A DNA stretch of 64,000 nucleotides from Pyrobaculum oguniense TE7 (GTDB taxonomy: Archaea > Thermoproteota > Thermoprotei > Thermoproteales > Thermoproteaceae), in the NCBI GenBank assembly GCA_000247545.1, contig CP003316.1, positions 1,335,233 to 1,399,232 of the forward strand, read 5' to 3'. Position 1 is the stretch's first letter. Every line of letters begins with the position of its first letter. The position numbers and the translations under genes are program-made. The notes beneath the pieces were generated by a model. The model ran no database searches, was not told the DNA's origin, and was given only the letters and a program-made list of their open reading frames with translations. Of the stretch, positions 4,178 through 22,777 are shown in pieces.

Positions 4178-5223
4178 AAGTCGGCATAGTTAGCTGGGGA
4201 GCATATATCCCCAAGTACCGTATCCGGACCGAGGAGGTTGCGCGGATCTGGGGCGATGACCCGCTCCGCATAGTCGACGTCTACCTCGTAGATGAAAAAA
4301 GCGTGGAGGGCATAGACGAAGACGCGGTGACCATAGCCGTGGAGGCTGCGAGGAGGGCCATAAGAAGGGCCGGCATAGACCCCAAGAAGATCGGCGCAGT
4401 ATACGCCGGCACCGAGTCGAAGCCATATGCCGTGAAGCCCATCTCCTCAATTCTCGTAGACGCCCTTGGCCTCAGTAACAACGTATTCGCGGTTGACATG
4501 GAGTTCGCCTGCAAGGCCGGTAGCGAGGGGTTAGTGGCAGCCATTGGGCTGGTCAAGGCGGGGCAGGTGGAGTACGGCATGACCGTCGGCACCGACACCT
4601 CCCAAGGCGAGCCTGGGGAGCACTTGGAGTACTCTGCAAGTAGCGGGGGCGTGGCATTGATAGTGGGCAGAGACGGCGTCGCCGCCGAGCTTGAGGCCGT
4701 GTATTCCTACGTCTCGGATACGCCCGACTTCTGGAGGAGGGAGGGCTCCCCCTACCCCATGCACGGCGAGGGCTTCACAGGCGAGCCGGCCTACTTTAGA
4801 CACATAATAGGTGCGGCGAAGGGGCTTATGGAGAAATACGGCTACAAGCCCTCCGACTTTGCATACGTGGTGTTCCACCAGCCCAACGGGAGGTTCCCCG
4901 TCCGCGCCGCATCTATGCTGAACATACCAATGGAGAAGATAAAGCCCGGCATTGTGGTGACTCACATAGGCAACACCTACAACGCCTCTGCCCTCATGGG
5001 CTTTGCCAAGGTGCTGGACGTGGCGAAGCCCGGCGACAAGATCCTCCTAGTGCCCTTCGGCAGCGGCGCTGGGTCAAACGCCTTCGTCTTCACCGTCACC
5101 GACGTGGTGCAGGAGCGGCAGAAGACAGGTGTCCCCACGGTGGAAGACATGCTAAGAGACAAGATCTACGTCGACTACGCCCAGTACCTCAAAATGCGTA
5201 AAATGATCAAACTATTTGACTAA
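4174..5223 (+). CDS. Hydroxymethylglutaryl-CoA synthase
   Basis: Condenses acetyl-CoA with acetoacetyl-CoA to HMG-CoA, feeding HMG-CoA reductase encoded just upstream on the other strand. At 349 aa it has the archaeal length. The nucleophile loop FACKAGSEG (Cys near 111) and the [10 protein letters not shown] block with the catalytic His are intact, as is the C-terminal [10 protein letters not shown]. It begins within the DUF35 stop codon. Because the neighbouring thiolase-like protein lacks its Cys, this is the only member of the HMG-CoA complex here with a recognisable acyl-enzyme nucleophile. Confidence 0.95.
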
Positions 5224-5281
5224 TATACATGTAATACCTACAGTAAACATCAGCAAAAAAAGCTACCAGACAAAATTTAAC

Positions 5282-5506
5282 ATGCCAAGAAGGCAGACGG
5301 ACAAGGTGTTTGAGCGCAAGGAGCAGATCATTGAATTTCTAAAAAAATACGGCGAGTTGACAACTAGCAGGCTGATACAGCTCACAGGTCTCAGCCACTC
5401 CCAGATCTTCTATGTCCTTAAGCTACTTGAAAAAGAAAATATAATAAAAGAGGTAAAAAGGGGAAAAATAGCCTACTGGAAACTAGTAGAGGCGAAGGAG
5501 GCTTAG
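5282..5506 (+). CDS. Small winged-helix DNA-binding protein
   Basis: About 74 aa from the ATG at 5282 (MPRRQTDKVFERK). Residues ~15-70 give a clear winged helix: EFLKKYGELTTSRLIQLTG, recognition helix SHSQIFYVLKLLEKENII, then the wing KEVKRGKIAYWKLVEA. It is a likely transcription regulator; its target is unknown. An in-frame extension back to 5216 overlaps HMG-CoA synthase and looks non-native. It lies just downstream of the mevalonate genes, so it could act on them, but nothing in the sequence proves that. Confidence 0.75.
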   Translation: MPRRQTDKVFERKEQIIEFLKKYGELTTSRLIQLTGLSHSQIFYVLKLLEKENIIKEVKRGKIAYWKLVEAKEA

Positions 5507-5514
5507 TTTTATAA
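5507..5514 (+). promoter_or_regulatory. TATA box before the GTG at 5535
   Basis: TTTTATAA overlaps the end of the preceding small HTH gene and lies 25 bases before the GTG at 5535, which makes that GTG the likely leaderless start. Confidence 0.55.
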
Positions 5515-5534
5515 CCACCCACCAAGAAGTATAA

Positions 5535-6149
5535 GTGCTCTCTGAGCTGTACAAGGCCGGCAAGATAAGGCCTGAGGCGCTTGGAGTCCTCGCAAAGACC
5601 ATCATCTGCATAAAAACAGGTTGCCTAGCCACGGGGCCTGAGGTGGCGCTTGGCGACGTAAAAATCCAGCTGGCAGAGGTGATAGCCATAGCGCCGCAAC
5701 CACGCCCCCAGGCCCAGAAGCCCAGGCCCCAGCAGAGAGTTGCTCAGCCCCTCGCCGCAAAGCCCCAGGCGCCGAAGCAGAAACAAGAGAAACCGCCCCC
5801 TGCTCAGACTACCTCCAAGGAGCCCCCCAAGACGGAGCGAGAGGAGAAACAAGAGGCCAAGAGCGTCGCCCCAGGTTGGGAGGCGCTAGTAGCCCTTTTG
5901 GCAAACGATGCCAAAATAGACAAAGCCAAGGCCGAGGCGGTGCTCGAGGCAGTGTCCTCCTACCTTGCTGTCTATCCCAGCGTCGGCGTGATCAGGCTGG
6001 TGGAAGACGTGGCCCGCATAGCCAAGACAGACCAAAAGACGGTCAGAACGGCCCTCGAGATCCTGCGCTCTGCAGATGCCATAGAGCTACGAGAAGAAGG
6101 CGTCGTAAATCTCAAAAAATTGTTTAAAAAAGGAGAGATCCCCCTCTAG
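5535..6149 (+). CDS. Two-domain protein with Pro/Lys-rich linker and C-terminal winged-helix-like domain
   Basis: 204 aa, not recognised as a named family. An N-terminal block (~1-50) has an LSELYKAGKIRPEALGVLAK helix and two Cys (IICIKTGC). Residues ~52-110 are a low-complexity linker of Pro, Gln, Lys and Glu. The C-terminus (~112-204) is helical, with LVEDVARIAKTDQKTVRTAL and an IELREEGVVNL wing, which resembles a winged helix. A nucleic-acid-binding role is an inference. It is convergent with the S25e gene and the 3' ends overlap by 4 bases. Confidence 0.7.
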   Translation: MLSELYKAGKIRPEALGVLAKTIICIKTGCLATGPEVALGDVKIQLAEVIAIAPQPRPQAQKPRPQQRVAQPLAAKPQAPKQKQEKPPPAQTTSKEPPKTEREEKQEAKSVAPGWEALVALLANDAKIDKAKAEAVLEAVSSYLAVYPSVGVIRLVEDVARIAKTDQKTVRTALEILRSADAIELREEGVVNLKKLFKKGEIPL

Positions 6150-6478
6150 CTCCTATTCGCGGGGACGTAGATCTCAGTTCGGTGCCCCTTGGCCACAAGC
6201 ACCAGATCCCCCCTGTCACGCAGAGCTCTCAGCACCTTGAAAGCAACAGACATCTTAATACCGTACTTCGACGCAATCTCGTAAGGAGTCACGACCTTCG
6301 CCGACTGCACCTCCTTTGCAATAGTCTGAAACACCTTCTCATCTAGAGTCTGCACAGTCCTCTTAGCCGGGGACTCCTCTTTCTTCGCCTCCTTCTTACC
6401 CTTCTGCGGTTGCTGCGCCTTCTCCTTCTCGGCCTTCTTAGCCAACTGGCTTAAAGTAGGCTTCTTCTTACCACCCAT
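6146..6478 (-). CDS. rps25e: 30S ribosomal protein S25e
   Basis: Small-subunit protein shared by archaea and eukaryotes. It has a lysine-rich N-terminal tail (~1-45) and the S25 winged-helix core: VTPYEIASKYGIKMSVAFKVLRALRDRGDL, ending in GHRTEIYVP. 110 aa, typical length. A TATA element (RC of ttataaac, 6501-6508) lies about 25 bases before the ATG at 6478. Confidence 0.95.
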   Translation of the reverse strand: MGGKKKPTLSQLAKKAEKEKAQQPQKGKKEAKKEESPAKRTVQTLDEKVFQTIAKEVQSAKVVTPYEIASKYGIKMSVAFKVLRALRDRGDLVLVAKGHRTEIYVPANRS

Positions 6479-6819: not shown

Positions 6820-7086
6820 CTAGTCGTATACCTGAAAGGAAAACCTGCCCTTACAAGAGGACATCTTCTGGGTTGGCCTTATCATTTTTACACCGCACTT
6901 ATGCACGTATTCCACCGCGTCTCCTCTGGTGCCGTGTGGTCTGCACCACCTCTCGTCTATGTAAGGTACACACATCCTCACAACCGGCTCTGCAACAACG
7001 AGCTCAGCCCCAGCCGCTCGTCTTGCCAGCGCCTCTGCCATCTGCCTAAAGACTGGGCGGTTCCGTACAGCCAATTCCTTTCCCAC
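6820..7086 (-). CDS. Small uncharacterised protein
   Basis: 88 aa from a GTG. Composition and codon use look native (AEALARRAAGAELVVAEP, RMCVPYIDERW, GDAVEYVHKCGVKMIRP) and Cys residues occur in MCVP, WCRP, KCG and SSCK. No family recognised. A weak TATA element (RC of tttat, 7105-7109) lies about 21 bases upstream. It sits between tRNA-Arg and a decayed permease, so it may itself be a remnant of something longer. Confidence 0.4.
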   Translation of the reverse strand: MGKELAVRNRPVFRQMAEALARRAAGAELVVAEPVVRMCVPYIDERWCRPHGTRGDAVEYVHKCGVKMIRPTQKMSSCKGRFSFQVYD

Positions 7087-8107: not shown

Positions 8108-8671
8108 TTATTTCGATTTGAGTAGTTTTATGAATTCTCTCATCCATGCTGGGTTGTCGGGCCAGGCTCTTGCAGTTACTAAGTTGCCGTCTACGACGAC
8201 TTCTTGATCTACCCATATGCCGCCGTTGTTCTCCACCTCGGGCCTCACGGCGATATAGCTGGTCATCTTCCTGCCCTTGACGACCCCCGCGGCCGCCAAG
8301 ATCTGAGGCGCGTGGCATATGGCGGCCACCGGCTTGTTGCGCTCGAAGAAATGCCTCACGATCCTCTTGACGTCCTCAGACGCCACAACCCTCACATATT
8401 CCGGCATCCTCCCGCCCGGTATCACAAGGCCGTCGTACTCCTCGGGCTTGACCTCGGCTAAGGTCTTGGTGACCCACCTGAAGAGGTAGCCGGGCTTCTC
8501 GCTGTAGGTCTCCCAGCCCGGCTCAAAGTCATGTACTACCGTCCTGAGCTCCTTCTTGGAGGGGGCCGCCACGTCTACCTCGAAGCCCTCCTCCCTGAGC
8601 CTGTAGTATGGATAGAAGATCTCCAGCGCCTCAACGGCGTCCCCCGCTATTATCAACACTTTCTTTGCCAT
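8108..8671 (-). CDS. DJ-1/PfpI family intracellular protease or glyoxalase-like enzyme
   Basis: 187 aa of the class I glutamine amidotransferase-like fold. It has VLIIAGDAVEALE at the N-terminus with the conserved Glu, YDGLVIPGGRMPEY, and the nucleophile elbow AAICHAPQILAAAG with Cys followed by His. PfpI-like proteins act as intracellular peptidases or as deglycase/glyoxalase stress enzymes, and the exact substrate cannot be told from sequence. A TATA box (RC of tatttaaaca, 8691-8700) lies about 25 bases before the ATG. It is a single-gene unit with its own terminator. Confidence 0.92.
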   Translation of the reverse strand: MAKKVLIIAGDAVEALEIFYPYYRLREEGFEVDVAAPSKKELRTVVHDFEPGWETYSEKPGYLFRWVTKTLAEVKPEEYDGLVIPGGRMPEYVRVVASEDVKRIVRHFFERNKPVAAICHAPQILAAAGVVKGRKMTSYIAVRPEVENNGGIWVDQEVVVDGNLVTARAWPDNPAWMREFIKLLKSK

Positions 8672-16204: not shown

Positions 16205-17806
16205 ATGCTGAGAAACGTTTTGTTGGGAGTTCTATTATTTGCCGCCGCGATTGTGGTATTGCAAACGTGGGTAGACGCTGTTGCGCAGAGAACTCCGTGG
16301 GGCAAAATAGTAGTGCAAAGCGGAGACGGGCAAGACGAGATAGAAGTAGTAATCTTAGAAGGGGGGAGGAGGTCAGACCGCGACTACGACTTCGCGATTG
16401 TGGGGATGGACGGAGAGATACGCACAAGACGGGCGGAGAGGGGCTACGGCAAAGTGGTGCTGGGCGCCTACCACGCCAAACTAGCTCAAATAGCCAAAGA
16501 ACTCGGCTACAACCCAACCGACGTTGAGCTGGGAGTTATTATTGAAATCGGGCGCCTCGTAGATCACAACGAAACACACATAGCGACAGAGAGAATGATA
16601 ATCTCAGCCCCCCTAAAGCCTGGAAAGCCAAACAAGATAAGGGTAGAAGTAGAATTCAAGCCACAAGCCAAAACATTGGTGCCCAAGCCAAAAAACTCAA
16701 CAAAGCCACACACGCGGGGCACATATGAAGTCCAAGCCTCTACCTCGCCACCCAGCTTAATTGAACAGGGCTGTCCCGCAATAAAAAGCCCATTTTCCAA
16801 CCCGGTATATACATGTTATGAGTGGAGGCTTGTGTCGAGCACGAAGAGCCAAGACACGCTAATCCCAAGCATGATCGTATACCTAGGCGCCAACGATGTA
16901 TACAACGCCAAATCTGTGTCCGTATATTCAGAGATAAAAGTAGGTCAAGACACAGGCCTGAGGCTGACTCTTCCCATAGGCGCCGTCTTATCTAAAGAGG
17001 GGAAGACATATCTACTAACACAAGGATTTACAGTAAACCTAGGCAGTAGTACTACGTTAATGCAAGCAAGTTGTCTATTTAGATCGAATAAGGAGACCCC
17101 CGCTTATTCAGAGTGTAGAGACATGCTAAGAGGCACCTCTACTACATTGCCAACTTATGATAGTAGTAGTCCTACAGGGGCGTGGGCGACCGTAGGGCCG
17201 CGGGGTGTATATTGGCAGGTGACATACGACATCTACTACGTGGCCTATGTGTACAACTGGACGTTGAGAAAATACGTAATTACGTACCAGTATAAAGTCG
17301 ACACAGCTACAGGCGTCTGGTCAGCGCCCTACGCAGAGCAGGTGGGCAACGGACAGTATAGATTCTGGCCTGAATTTAGAATCAACTCATATGAAATAGG
17401 CCGGGTCGTAACTTACTACAATACACCCGAGTGGAGTGGAGGACCGCCTAAATTCACGATTCAGAGCGGGGCAAGTTCTTACATTGCCATAGGTGTATAT
17501 CAAATCGTAAGTGAAGCTAATACACTGTTTTCAACTACGCCGTTTGCAGTACCCGCAACCCTTATTGCTTGTGCTTATACAGGTGGCTCCTTGTGCACTA
17601 TTGCCGCCACTGCGGCTACTTCGTTTGACGTTTCTTATGAGACGTCTATGTATTTAAGCCAGTTGGGAATAGTGCAAGCCGATTTGAGGTGTTCGGTGCC
17701 GTATGAAAGCACAGGCTTTACTATAAAGAACTACCTAGAAGGCATGGGCGTTGAGGTATATCTCCCCGCGGTGTTTATACATCTCCGCACCACTGCACGT
17801 TGTTAA
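16205..17806 (+). CDS. Secreted protein of unknown function
   Basis: 533 aa. N-terminal signal peptide (LLGVLLFAAAIVVLQTWVDA), then a mixed charged region to ~170, then a Ser/Thr/Tyr-rich beta-type region typical of archaeal exoproteins (for instance YWQVTYDIYYVAYVYNWTL). Six or more Cys (near CPAIKS, TCYEW, ASCLF, SECRD, LIACAYT, RCSVP) could form disulfides. No catalytic motif recognised and no C-terminal membrane anchor. It opens an accessory block of exported proteins. Confidence 0.7.
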   Translation: MLRNVLLGVLLFAAAIVVLQTWVDAVAQRTPWGKIVVQSGDGQDEIEVVILEGGRRSDRDYDFAIVGMDGEIRTRRAERGYGKVVLGAYHAKLAQIAKELGYNPTDVELGVIIEIGRLVDHNETHIATERMIISAPLKPGKPNKIRVEVEFKPQAKTLVPKPKNSTKPHTRGTYEVQASTSPPSLIEQGCPAIKSPFSNPVYTCYEWRLVSSTKSQDTLIPSMIVYLGANDVYNAKSVSVYSEIKVGQDTGLRLTLPIGAVLSKEGKTYLLTQGFTVNLGSSTTLMQASCLFRSNKETPAYSECRDMLRGTSTTLPTYDSSSPTGAWATVGPRGVYWQVTYDIYYVAYVYNWTLRKYVITYQYKVDTATGVWSAPYAEQVGNGQYRFWPEFRINSYEIGRVVTYYNTPEWSGGPPKFTIQSGASSYIAIGVYQIVSEANTLFSTTPFAVPATLIACAYTGGSLCTIAATAATSFDVSYETSMYLSQLGIVQADLRCSVPYESTGFTIKNYLEGMGVEVYLPAVFIHLRTTARC

Positions 17807-18395: not shown

Positions 18396-19165
18396 ATGGA
18401 GCGTAAGGTGGTCTTCGGCTTAGCGCTGGCGGCCTTGGCTGTGTTAATAATGTCCGCAACTTATCCAGATTCAGAAGTTCAGACCCCTTTTCGCAGGTGT
18501 TCAGTACGAGGCGAGGTGGGGGCTGTTTGAGCTCTTCAGCTCGATATGTAGCCTAGGCTATCCAGTGGCGCTATCTTCATCGCCTAATCAACCGTGGGGC
18601 TACATATCGGCGGCTCACTGCATCGAGTCAAGAGTGGGGGTGAGTATATACCAGCCCACTAAAGGATCCGATACATACATCGGAACTTCAAGGGCGGACA
18701 AGATTTCCGTATCTCTTGACGCATATGCCATAGATATTAGCGATAAATCAATTATCAGTAACTATGTAATAAGCCTACCTGCGGGGGCTAGATACGCAAT
18801 TTTGAAATACTACACAGACTCAGAACTGGGTAGCATGATAGGGGACGCCTTGTGCAAGACTGGTAGAACTACACTAACTGTGGAAACCTAAACGGCTTTC
18901 GAGCAGACTCGGGCCGGAGATGGGTAGTGGCCAGCGGTCCTCCTTGGTGTGATTCCGGACCTTGGCTGAGGGCGATAGCGGAGGAGTTGTGTGGTATTAC
19001 TATGGAAGTAGCATCGCTGTGGCTGGCATAGGCTACGGCATGGATTCAGGCAGGTGTTGTAGGTACTTCACTGCATGGGATGGACAGCAGTATTACGGAT
19101 GTGATAACTTCCGCAGCGCTGATATGATTAATAAAGCCTTGGGAGTAGTGGGGTGGAGATGGTGA
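18396..19165 (+). pseudogene. Frameshifted chymotrypsin-like (S1) secreted serine protease
   Basis: Joined across frames it reads: signal peptide MERKVVFGLALAALAVLIMS, then FAGVQYEARWGLFELFSSIC, then GYISAAHCIES with the catalytic His (18616-18618), VSLDAYAIDI with the Asp (18718-18720), CGNLNGFRADSGRRWVVAS and GDSGGVVWYYY with the Ser (18977-18979). Frame changes are needed near 18,510, 18,880 and 18,962. All three triad codons are intact although the frame is lost, so inactivation looks recent. A TATA-like aaaaaag lies about 24 bases before the ATG. The next gene starts inside its stop region. Confidence 0.7.
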
Positions 19166-20019
19166 GGCCTATGGTCTTGCTCGCCGTTGCGCTGGCCGTT
19201 GCCGTGCAGGCGGGGGTGCTGTATGTGAACATGTCGAAGTACGTCGTCGAGGTTAACACCACCTGCGGGCCTGCGTATATATTCACGGCGCCGTTTGACT
19301 ACGCCCCTAACCTGGGCAAGTGGCTCGTCGAGGAGGGGTTCGTCCAGAAGTACGACAGCCCAATCCGCAAGAAGGCTAGGGAGATGCTCGGCATAGAGTC
19401 TGAGGACAGGGCGACTCTGGATCAGTGGAAGTCGCTTGTTGCGCTCAGCCAGTCTCTGCTAAGCGACAAGGTGCGGGCTGTGGAGGGCGTGTTAAGAGGG
19501 GCCGGCGTCGAGGTTATAGAGGTGGGCGGCGTGGACACGGTGAAGATCCCCAGCGACAAGGTCAACAACGGCTCTGTATACGCCTTCGTTAGGCTGAGCG
19601 GGAGGCTCAGCGTGCTCAAAGACTTGGAGAGAGTTGCAGACCAGTACAACATATCCATCCTGGTCATAGACCTCCCAAGAGTCAGAGCCCATGCGGCAAA
19701 CAAAACTGTCGACTCAATACCTGGCCTAGGCGCCCCCACACACGGCTTAGCGACTGTTACGATGTTTGGGCAGTTCGGCGACCTGGCCTACTACGTGCGC
19801 CGGCCAGACGAAAAGACCATCAAGGCTGTTGAAAAATATTTACGGGAGAGGGAGCTGTGCGGCGTCGCTGTGTTGTTCGTCCCAGGCGAGGGGTACGTCC
19901 CCCGCCTATTGACCGCTGAAACGCGGAGGGGATCTCCCGTTCTGTCCCTAGTGGCGCTGGCCGCCGGCGCGGCGGCAGTGGCGGCGGCGCTTCTCCTTTT
20001 GTTTAGGAGACGCGTTTAG
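19159..20019 (+). CDS. Exported membrane-anchored partner of the S1 protease remnant
   Basis: ~286 aa. Signal peptide (VLLAVALAVAVQAGVLYV), a soluble exterior region, and a C-terminal anchor (LVALAAGAAAVAAALLLL followed by FRRRV). The exterior shows a strand-helix-strand unit (SVYAFVRLSGRLSVLKDLER, then ISILVIDLP) and a second unit near residues 200-255 with one Cys (ELCGVAVLF). The ATG lies within the overlapping end of the protease frame. The minus-strand gene at 21,065-21,976 has the same layout and position relative to another S1 protease, so the two look like paralogous partners. Function unknown. Confidence 0.7.
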   Translation: MVRPMVLLAVALAVAVQAGVLYVNMSKYVVEVNTTCGPAYIFTAPFDYAPNLGKWLVEEGFVQKYDSPIRKKAREMLGIESEDRATLDQWKSLVALSQSLLSDKVRAVEGVLRGAGVEVIEVGGVDTVKIPSDKVNNGSVYAFVRLSGRLSVLKDLERVADQYNISILVIDLPRVRAHAANKTVDSIPGLGAPTHGLATVTMFGQFGDLAYYVRRPDEKTIKAVEKYLRERELCGVAVLFVPGEGYVPRLLTAETRRGSPVLSLVALAAGAAAVAAALLLLFRRRV

Positions 20020-20025
20020 AAACCC

Positions 20026-20991
20026 TTATTTTTTCTCGGCCCTCCAGTCTACTAGGCTGTGCACGGGCTTGCCTTTCAGCTTCATTACATGCGCCGTGGC
20101 TGAGAGGGCGGCGGCGACGCCCATGGCGGCTGATATCACCGCCTGTTTGTATGGATAGGCCACGATGTCGCCGGCGGCGAAGACGCCTGGGGTCTTCGTC
20201 CTGCCCTCCCAGTCCGCTATTATCTCCCCCCTCTCGTTAAGGTCTACGAGGTGCTTCACGAAGTCGCTTTTCGTGACGTAGCCCACCTCGACAAACACGG
20301 CGGAGACGGGGAGCTCTTGCACCTCGCCCGTCTTCCTGTTCTTAACCACCACGGCCCTCACCTTCGTATCGCCCTTTATCTCCACGACCTCGCTGTTCGG
20401 CACGAAGACGGCTTTGCCAAGCCTCTTGGCTTGTTCTATAAACTCGTCGTCGTGTATCGGCTTGTCACCTGGGAAAATCCAGTAGAACTTGTTGGCCACC
20501 GAGGAGAGTATGGTCACGGGCTCCCTGGCCAAGTCCCCCCAGCTCACCAGCGCCACGTCTTGGCCTTTGAAAAACGGCGCGTCGCAAATGGTGCAGTAGG
20601 AGACGCCCCTGTTCTTGAACTTGGCCTCCCCGGGTACGTTCAGCTCCTTCGGCGTCTTGCCGAAGGCCAGGACTACAGCCAACGCCTTATACTCGTCGCC
20701 CCCCTCCGTCTTCACCACGAAGACGTCGCCCTGCTTCTCCACCGTTTTCACCTCGTCGAAGATAATCTCCGCGCCGAAGGCCCTAGCCTGTTGCTCAACG
20801 CGCTTGGCAAGCTCGGGGCCGGAGATCTTGGCGATTGCCGGGTAGTTCTCGATGAGAGTCGTCATGTTCAGCTGGCCGCCGAGATCCTTGCTAATGACCA
20901 GCGTCTTGAGCCTCTGCCTAGCCGCGTACAAAGCCGCCGAGAGACCCGCTATCCCCGCCCCCACAATGATCACATCGTAATCCGCCTCCAT
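20026..20991 (-). CDS. Thioredoxin-reductase-like flavoprotein without a normal NAD(P)H motif
   Basis: 321 aa. FAD site DVIIVGAGIAGLSAALYAAR, redox-active disulfide YCTICDAPFF, and C-terminal FAD block TPGVFAAGDIVAYPYKQ are intact. The pyridine nucleotide Rossmann motif normally GGGDSAxEE reads VSWGDLAREP, and the NADPH-phosphate HRR motif is IFPGDK. The enzyme may therefore take electrons from NADH in an altered site, ferredoxin or another donor. It lies between two secreted-protease modules. TATA (RC of tttaaaaa, 21013-21020) lies about 25 bases before the ATG. Confidence 0.88.
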   Translation of the reverse strand: MEADYDVIIVGAGIAGLSAALYAARQRLKTLVISKDLGGQLNMTTLIENYPAIAKISGPELAKRVEQQARAFGAEIIFDEVKTVEKQGDVFVVKTEGGDEYKALAVVLAFGKTPKELNVPGEAKFKNRGVSYCTICDAPFFKGQDVALVSWGDLAREPVTILSSVANKFYWIFPGDKPIHDDEFIEQAKRLGKAVFVPNSEVVEIKGDTKVRAVVVKNRKTGEVQELPVSAVFVEVGYVTKSDFVKHLVDLNERGEIIADWEGRTKTPGVFAAGDIVAYPYKQAVISAAMGVAAALSATAHVMKLKGKPVHSLVDWRAEKK

Positions 20992-21064
20992 GGCACCCTT
21001 CCCCGCGTGGTGTTTAAAAAATTTCGCACAGAAGAGGGGTAAAGAAGTACGACGTGTTAAAAAA

Positions 21065-21976
21065 CTACCGTTTTCTCCCCCCAGCCCCGTACATTATAGC
21101 CGCAAGCGCCGCCACCGCCACAAGCAAGGACACCAGCAACACGCTACCCGCCGAGCCGCTTGGGCGCTCCGCCGACAGCGCCGCGGGCGCGCCCTCGGCA
21201 TCAGACACCCCGCTAGGTGGGGGCTCCCCCAATGACACAGTGGGCTTGTTCCCCACGGCAAAATCTTCTAAAGGCGACTGCTCCACAACAAGTGCGCCGC
21301 TTGTTGTAGACCTCTCCCGTGCCGGGTAGTAGTAAAACTTAGACGCGAAGTATACCATTGGGTACTCACACGGCACCACCGTCCTCATCTGTGCCGCCAC
21401 CTTGTCGGCCTCTTCGTCTGTAGCGTTTATAATTATGAGCACCACTAGAGGCGCGTCAAACATAAACCCCAGGAAGTAGCTCCTATTCCCATATATTCTG
21501 CTGTACCTCAATGCCCACTCTATGACCATTTCGGTCATCTTCTCCCGACCGGGGTACTCGGGGGCTGTGGCATTGATGTAGAAGACCGTCAGCCCTACAT
21601 CCAGCCCCCTGGCCTTTCTCAAGACGTGATCTACCAGCGACTTGTTGCCGAATATGTACACCTCAACGGCTATATCGACTTGGTCATGTCCCAACTCCTT
21701 TGCGCGTCTCAAGGTGCCCTCGTCGAGTATTTCGTCGCCGCGGATGTATACGCCCCGCAACTTCTTCAAGCCTTCTACAAACGCCCTGGCCGACGGCAAC
21801 ATCTTAGCGGCCTTGTCCACCTCCACGCGGGCCACGGACTTTGCCACCGTTGGCACATCTTGAGTCTTTACGAGATAGCAAGTCTTGTTCACGACCACGC
21901 CGCCGAAGTCGTACACAACCTGCGGCGCCGCAAGCAACAACACGGCAACCGCTAATATAAACAAGAGCGGCCTCAT
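21065..21976 (-). CDS. Exported membrane-anchored partner of the second S1 protease-like gene
   Basis: 303 aa. Signal peptide (LLFILAVAVLLLAAPQVV), an exterior region with several Asn-x-Ser/Thr sites, a Ser/Pro/Ala-rich stalk (~255-280), and a C-terminal anchor (SVLLVSLLVAVAALAAIMYG followed by GRKR). The segment YFLGFMFDAPLVVLIIINAT and the following VVPCEYPMVYFAS can be laid against residues 200-255 of the plus-strand partner at 19,159, including a single Cys and a Y-x-P. It directly follows the S1 protease-like gene on the minus strand. Function unknown. Confidence 0.7.
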   Translation of the reverse strand: MRPLLFILAVAVLLLAAPQVVYDFGGVVVNKTCYLVKTQDVPTVAKSVARVEVDKAAKMLPSARAFVEGLKKLRGVYIRGDEILDEGTLRRAKELGHDQVDIAVEVYIFGNKSLVDHVLRKARGLDVGLTVFYINATAPEYPGREKMTEMVIEWALRYSRIYGNRSYFLGFMFDAPLVVLIIINATDEEADKVAAQMRTVVPCEYPMVYFASKFYYYPARERSTTSGALVVEQSPLEDFAVGNKPTVSLGEPPPSGVSDAEGAPAALSAERPSGSAGSVLLVSLLVAVAALAAIMYGAGGRKR

Positions 21977-21999
21977 GACCTATACGTATATAGGTAGAC

Positions 22000-22777
22000 T
22001 TATAATCTGTTGAGCGCCTCGTGGATAGGCGCAACAAGTAATACTGTCGGATTGCTCTCCGCATTGCCGCCTTGTATTAAGCCTAAAATATTTGCATAGT
22101 AGACGGTCATTGAGTCTATCCTCTGGCTCCACATGTAGAACACAGGCCCGCCACCATCGCCGCGACAAGCGCTTATTTTCTGCGATTGGCCTTTAACCAA
22201 CAGATAACTAAGCGTTATTGCCCCACGCTCATCCCGTACTGGCCCGTAATATTCTATACTGAGTCCCGAATCATAGCCACAACGGAATCCGAGCTTTGAG
22301 TAGCCGGACATCGGAGCGGTTGACGGCGTGTAGTACCAGTTTACTAGCGCGTTTTGGGAGAACCCCACCGCTGATGTGGCTATCCAGGGCCTGACCAATC
22401 TGTCGGAGACTTCTATATCTTATCAACGCCGCGTCGACTGACGGCTGGCCGCTGTAGTAGCTGTCCCTGAGCACAGTGCCGATGTAGTTGTTTACCTGAG
22501 AGCTTCTGTACGGCTGGTAGACCACGTCCTGGTAGTACTGATTTGTGCAGTGGCCGGCGGTTAGGAACCCAAACACTCTGCCACTCCCCTCGTACCAATA
22601 TACCGGCACGCCGAGGCTACAATATCCCACTAGGATATACCTATCGGGAGTTTGATAATACCCCACTTCTATCATGATGCCGCCTGCAAGGTCGTTCCAC
22701 CTATCAGTTAGCGACAGCGCGCTGGCCGCGACCGCCAATAGCAATGCGGCAACGCCTATCAGTTTGGAGTTGGGCAT
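22000..22777 (-). pseudogene. Frameshifted S1 protease-like gene with Ser to Gly change
   Basis: Two overlapping frames join near 22,398-22,420. First part: signal peptide (LIGVAALLLAVAASALSL), VFGFLTAGHCTNQ with the His (22550-22552), PSVDAALIRY with the Asp (22433-22435). Second part: VRPWIATSAVGFSQNALVNW, then FRCGYDSGLS and SACRGDGGGPVFY. The family motif GDSGGP reads GDGGGP: the nucleophile codon (22153-22155) is GGT. So it is both shifted and missing its Ser. It could be a dead gene, or a non-catalytic homologue with a frame change. Its partner gene follows 23 bases later. Confidence 0.7.

Follow-up and report, generated by a model that had tools for sequence, protein, structure and literature searches.

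What does the membrane-anchored protein encoded beside each of two secreted protease genes do in Pyrobaculum oguniense TE7, and is the protease system to which it belongs still at work there? The window, that is, the whole stretch of 64,000 nucleotides that was analysed, comes from a genome (G000) of 2,452,920 bases in two contigs, with a chromosome of 2,436,033 bases. A preliminary description had placed five genes at this locus, namely two chymotrypsin-like protease genes, an anchored partner for each and a flavoprotein gene between the two pairs, and open reading frames and translations bear out all five positions (Table 1). Judged from orthologues, the window carries two remnants of a conserved two-gene module of the Thermoproteota, composed of a secreted S1 protease without a pro-domain and a downstream type I membrane protein. 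The chances are about even that this partner acts in trans as a membrane-tethered stand-in for the pro-domain, which would fold the protease, inhibit it or both.

Table 1. Positions of the window genes, the third gene pair of the genome and associated features in other contigs
Feature	Sequence	Position	Strand	Basis
Protease gene A, broken, S1 (chymotrypsin fold)	window	18396..19165	+	three-frame translation; tblastn against intact 265-aa G009 orthologue
Partner A, 288 aa	window	19153..20019	+	single ORF; orthologues
Thioredoxin-reductase-like flavoprotein	window	20026..20991	-	NCBIfam TRX_reduct 306 bits; Pfam Pyr_redox_2
Partner B, 303 aa	window	21065..21976	-	single ORF; orthologues
Protease gene B, broken, S1	window	about 21979..22777	-	alignment with intact L062/G001 gene; translations
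533-aa protein upstream of module A	window	16205-17806	+	
Third-pair protease, one frameshift	L030	about 8786-7993	-	
Third-pair partner, intact	L030	8012-6900	-	
Repeated leader	L032	617-705, 2264-2370, 5317-5448, 7410-7507, 8971-9065, 12087-12359, 13906-14048		
Repeated leader	L056	6256-6354		
Repeated leader	L031	656-727, 2615-2725, 5574-5684, 9309-9428		
Leader with near-palindrome	L017	4390-4500, 11030-11130		
Fused 642-aa ORF, partner B and family D	L016	5804-7732		
Fused 642-aa ORF, partner B and family D	L017	5380-7308		
E-type frameshift site	L056	about 6400-6470		
E-type frameshift site	L057	about 8450-8500		
E-type frameshift site	L058	about 6850-6890		
Class I locus with N-anchored downstream gene	L094 (this genome, C1 about 406648-408063)	4649-6064		
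Class I locus with N-anchored downstream gene	L059	7106-8512		
Class I locus with N-anchored downstream gene	L095	4983-6260		

Lesions in the proteases of this genome

Three-frame translation of protease A yields a signal peptide followed by a catalytic domain that runs across three further frame segments, so that three frame changes (about 18470, 18873 and 18968) would be needed to read it, and it also contains an internal stop. With the intact 265-aa orthologue of genome G009 as query, tblastn placed the segments in frames 1, 3 and 2 and likewise showed a stop. The catalytic motifs are kept though frameshifted, and the TGA stop of the gene overlaps partner A by 13 bases. The preliminary description had noticed damage in A only; protease B was found to be broken as well. 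Its +1 frameshift near 22418-22428 leaves two ORFs (22777-22271 and 22398-22000), its catalytic Ser codon has been changed to Gly at 22153-22155 (GDSGG to GDGGG), and a Gln codon has become a TAA stop at 22000-22002, near the end of the frame of the intact relative. In contigs L062, L016 and L017, the stop of that intact relative overlaps the partner start codon by 4 bases.

Sequencing error was ruled out as the source of the lesions in A and B, since each gene carries several independent ones; the single frameshift of the third protease, at about 800,620 of C1, may be such an error. Both partners of the window form one open frame each, with the N-terminal hydrophobic signal and C-terminal transmembrane segment described before. 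By their reading frames, then, both window proteases are dead and both partners are intact, and with the third protease broken too, the notion of a working protease system in P. oguniense is not supported.

Upstream of module A lies a gene for a 533-aa protein with an N-terminal hydrophobic segment. Large secreted proteins stand near other modules too, and they possibly correspond to the families of the 'Pyrobaculum-specific expansion' that the excerpted text of a 2014 study mentions (PMC4158269).

The flavoprotein neighbour and shared leaders

The suspicion that the flavoprotein is only a neighbour was well founded. Its score of 306 bits to the thioredoxin reductase model of NCBIfam lies below the cut-off of 343 bits, and it contains a CTIC motif. 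The gene was found in 11 of 11 Pyrobaculum genomes, including five where no protease of this family was detected; it mostly lies away from the module and adjoins it only in G000 and G001. On this distribution, a functional link with the module was rejected.

A leader of about 70-110 bases, 74-98% identical between copies, was observed upstream of unrelated secreted-protein genes (proteases, partners and large beta-rich proteins) in G009, and a second such leader recurs within G006. These repeats look like a shared promoter or leader; Rfam gave no match to the leader in L032. Protease genes A and B of G009 have another leader in common, with the near-palindrome AATACGATTCGTATT, which suggests that modules A and B are co-regulated.

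The proteases and their missing pro-domain

Intact orthologues in G001, G003, G009 and G006 carry the His-Asp-Ser triad in AGHC, D and GDSGG motifs, and the G001 protease lies above the Pfam Trypsin cut-off. When a profile of the archaeal proteases was compared with the PDB, streptogrisin B (E = 2.6e-6) and alpha-lytic protease (E = 4e-4) were the best matches. These similarities assign the module proteases to peptidase family S1, where they are S1E-like and close to the alpha-lytic protease/streptogrisin group.

The relatives were sorted by the protease gene only. At least about 75 residues between the signal peptide and the motif 'P-L-V-G-G-V-Q-I' at the catalytic start defined class I, and S1 relatives without such an N-terminal segment, broken copies included, formed class II. 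Position 32 of the class II profile, directly after the signal peptide, aligns to residue 2 of mature alpha-lytic protease, and thus only the signal peptide precedes the enzyme. Profile alignment and N-terminal lengths both indicate that an N-terminal pro-domain is absent from the module proteases. In class I relatives, archaeal as well as bacterial, the signal and the catalytic start are about 75-215 aa apart. Their position and the example of the S1E family suggest that these extensions act as pro-domains, least surely in L083-L093, L108, L139 and L140, where the N-terminal region may be something other than a pro-domain. On the protease tree there are 4 label changes against 11.9 after shuffling; with the deep forks of the tree weak, the pro-less proteases may have one origin or several. 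No relatives were found in viral contigs.

Pairing of extension-less proteases with a downstream partner

A type I membrane gene directly downstream, called by a simple hydropathy rule, was found for 27 of the 30 archaeal class II proteases and for none of the 22 in class I; among the background genes of these loci, the rule picked 15 of 202. Class II fell short in three cases: at L128 the contig ends, the partner in L134 is secreted but lacks a membrane helix, and in L058 the helix is just under the threshold. Class I contains, among others, a contig of Rubrivirga (L063) and two families, one of about 470 aa in Pyrobaculum (L059, L094, L095) and one of about 610-650 aa (L098, L100, L102, L103). 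Tracing the protease instead of the partner added further families, in which each extension-less protease-like gene precedes a gene for a signal-peptide protein, usually with a C-terminal membrane helix. Intact pairs (protease/partner, in aa) are those of G001 B (275/293), G009 A (265/287), G009 C (262/364) and G006 C (249/351), together with two in G023 and others in further families (L107, L129, L131, L132, L133, L135 and L137). In many pairs the two genes overlap by 4 bases, which suggests translational coupling.

Orthologous pairs in other genomes place the pairing seen at A and B beyond chance, and their occurrence in several genomes and several families of the phylum agrees with the earlier proposal of a conserved extracellular protease/anchored-partner module. 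Rather than lacking a protease neighbour in most genomes, nearly all partners follow a protease gene or what is left of one, although about half of these proteases are dead. The proposal that the partner 'anchors, chaperones or inhibits' the protease can be narrowed: since only proteases with no N-terminal extension in cis are accompanied by a partner, the partner may be taken for a stand-in for the pro-domain, supplied in trans. This trade-off, with the missing pro-domain, is the principal evidence for the stand-in reading.

The class I S1 proteases of Pyrobaculum also have a conserved downstream gene, of a different type, which encodes a protein of 216-235 aa with an N-terminal anchor and overlaps the protease gene by 4 bases in L094 and L095.

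The partner proteins

Partner A consists of a signal peptide, an exterior part of 230 aa with Cys 38 and Cys 236, a C-terminal transmembrane helix and a basic tail, whereas in partner B an exterior part with Cys 33 and Cys 203 is followed by a long stalk and the C-terminal helix. Partner A occurs in five Pyrobaculum genomes (the window and four others), and G001 also has a divergent paralogue of it. Partner B occurs in four, with orthologues in G001, G003 and G009 and also in contig L062. Across all families, partner length varies from about 270 to 380 aa. Many partners have one Cys in an early strand and another just ahead of the last strand, a pair that plausibly forms a disulfide. In most families, alignment by eye gives the last unit before the stalk as strand, loop, helix, (Cys), strand.

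The partner families matched nothing in Pfam, NCBIfam or the PDB sequences. In profile comparison, families A and B reached a probability of 66-70%, with E about 5e-5 in a pairwise test near the C-terminal half, and families C and E reached 38%. The similarity of A and B noted in the preliminary description is therefore real, though borderline, and the homology suggested between partner families is weak. AlphaFold models based on alignments of only 2-3 rows, drawn from the window and one related contig, were poor (mean pLDDT 51.3 for B and 43.8 for A); in the B model, residues 46-135 alone reach about 70-87 and contain two beta-alpha-beta stretches. A Foldseek search of PDB folds with this model, too poor to be informative, returned nothing at E <= 0.001. 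In G003 and G009, partner B is fused in one ORF to a family D protein that has its own signal peptide and membrane anchor.

Asymmetric decay of the gene pairs

Both genes are intact in 16 loci (L134 counted). In about 15 others the protease is broken or deleted while the partner is open, and no intact protease with a broken partner was found among the surveyed loci. The decayed set comprises window A, window B and the third pair of this genome; G001 A (a 61-aa stub after deletion) and A2; G003 A (C-terminal scraps only), E and E2; G009 E and E2; G007 A; and G342, G471b, G178 and G368. It includes some metagenome assemblies, and the G368 call, which depends on a missing signal frame, is uncertain. 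For 15 against 0, a two-sided sign test gives about 6e-5, or about 5e-4 when the shared E-type frameshift and the G178/G368 loci of one genus are each counted once. In G001 B' the partner is frameshifted too, yet it is open in L062, a contig 99.7% identical. Partners evidently outlive their proteases, at least for a time, and since the reverse was never seen, inhibition or immunity is favoured over folding help alone. A protein that did nothing but help its client to fold would be expected to decay along with it, whereas the partners persist.

Two side observations concern these loci. An apparent frameshift of one base, located between signal and catalytic domain, is common to the E-type proteases of G009 and to both copies in G003; downstream of it the frames are open although the copies differ, and programmed frameshifting may be at work. 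Over 8.2 kb, contig L062 (WUQR01000008.1) has 99.67% identity to G001, and its placement in a Calditenuaceae MAG is probably a case of mis-binning; in this contig, the intact B' partner runs in frame into the flavoprotein ORF (634 aa).

The same asymmetry lends itself to a tentative alternative, unlikely on balance, in which the partner is an immunity protein. Here the protease would harm competitors or endanger its maker, the anchored partner would shield the surface of the maker, and orphan partners would protect against the proteases of relatives. The persistence of partners fits this reading, as does purifying selection on partner A between the window and G001 (dN/dS 0.17), neither of which has a working protease. 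Between G009 and G003, dN/dS is 0.07 for partner E and 0.51 for its broken protease. Faster divergence of partners than of proteases, with 43% against 73% identity in the B pair of G001 and G003, also points in this direction. However, selection on some orphan partners may be relaxed (dN/dS 0.68 from few changes for partner A between G003 and G009), no sign of killing or of a target range was seen, and immunity alone leaves the restriction of partners to proteases without a long N-terminal extension unexplained.

Weighing the role of the partner

Surface attachment offers another route. In Staphylothermus marinus, the crenarchaeal protease STABLE is held at the cell surface by tetrabrachion; it resembles the module in being a surface-held crenarchaeal protease and differs in being a subtilase on an S-layer stalk instead of part of an S1 pair. 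By analogy, the partner might be a mere dock for the mature, active protease. The type I topology of nearly all partners, with signal, exterior domain, stalk and basic cytoplasmic tail, would suit such a dock, but docking requires neither one-to-one gene coupling nor co-variation with the N-terminal extension, the partner in L134 lacks a membrane helix, and docks without clients should decay, all of which makes this explanation improbable. Also improbable is that the partner has a role of its own, as a substrate or a structural protein of the surface, and that the protease is a losable accessory processing enzyme: partners do persist without proteases and modules often lie beside large secreted beta-rich proteins, but the survey turned up no pro-less protease that lacked a partner gene (one locus being at a contig end), relatives with a cis extension never have one, and the partner families are too divergent for a single structural role.

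As the pro-domain stand-in, the partner would be exported and tethered outside the membrane, would bind the protease as it emerges, and would aid its folding and/or hold it inhibited at the cell surface until release. Binding, folding help and inhibition are functions that we infer for the partner. In this genome, where partners are kept though the proteases are dead, protective inhibition probably still pays, or the partner has a second role. Cis pro-domains end in a unit like the last one of the partners, with a beta-alpha-beta layout. Profiles of the two units match in register but weakly: the score is 12.2, where 60 column shuffles reached at most 8.9, and the hhalign probability is 1.4%; between whole partner families and cis pro-domains, profiles detected no homology (probability at most 1.2%).

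A combined scenario of surface defence or antagonism in archaea, which we consider rather unlikely, is that the pro-domain function of a secreted S1 protease moved to a separate, anchored gene with a second role in immunity; lineages without the protease would then retain the anchored inhibitor for protection against relatives.

If the stand-in reading is true, the module would represent a natural split of protease and pro-domain across several families of the Thermoproteota, in which the pro-domain half is tethered to the cell. It would also provide a function for a set of uncharacterised surface-protein families and an annotation rule for archaeal proteases, by which the lack of a cis extension signals a trans partner. 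The recurrent state of a dead protease beside a living partner makes inhibition, folding and immunity directly testable against each other.

Comparison with known systems

A 2008 survey of prokaryotic serine proteases recorded one trypsin-type protein in P. aerophilum and S1-PDZ as the sole domain combination, present in 4 of the 6 archaeal genomes with trypsins (PMC2605481). The 2014 archaeal 'dark matter' study reported Pyrobaculum-specific expansions of large secreted proteins, and its excerpted text names no S1 pair (PMC4158269). No description of the protease/partner module was found in the openly licensed literature, and the general arrangement is apparently undescribed, the function of the partner being one that we infer.

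Among known enzymes, alpha-lytic protease and streptogrisin B (S1E) are the closest, being the best PDB matches and resembling the module protease in the start of the catalytic domain. S1E enzymes have an N-terminal pro region, and the class I relatives described here carry a cis extension at that place. Unlike them, the module protease has no extension, and a separate anchored protein of no known family is encoded next door. The Pseudomonas lipase foldase LipH/Lif, in the excerpted account of PMC13381987, is likewise a membrane-anchored steric chaperone made as a separate polypeptide for a secreted enzyme. Its client is a lipase, and the anchor in the present module is type I and C-terminal; the likeness is one of description, not of sequence.

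Inhibition provides a further parallel. In the staphostatin and Spi systems, with staphopains and SpeB, a secreted protease gene is likewise transcriptionally coupled to a dedicated inhibitor gene, and one pair in B. thetaiotaomicron consists of a protease without its catalytic Cys and a retained inhibitor gene (PMC3462683). These systems differ in that the enzymes are cysteine proteases keeping their own propeptides and the inhibitors are cytoplasmic, periplasmic or membrane-associated (PMC3462683). Finally, VvsA/VvsB of Vibrio vulnificus shares with the module a chymotrypsin-like secreted protease in an operon whose downstream product modulates its activity (PMC11272048); that system is bacterial, its partner is a different protein, and the resemblance is again by description.
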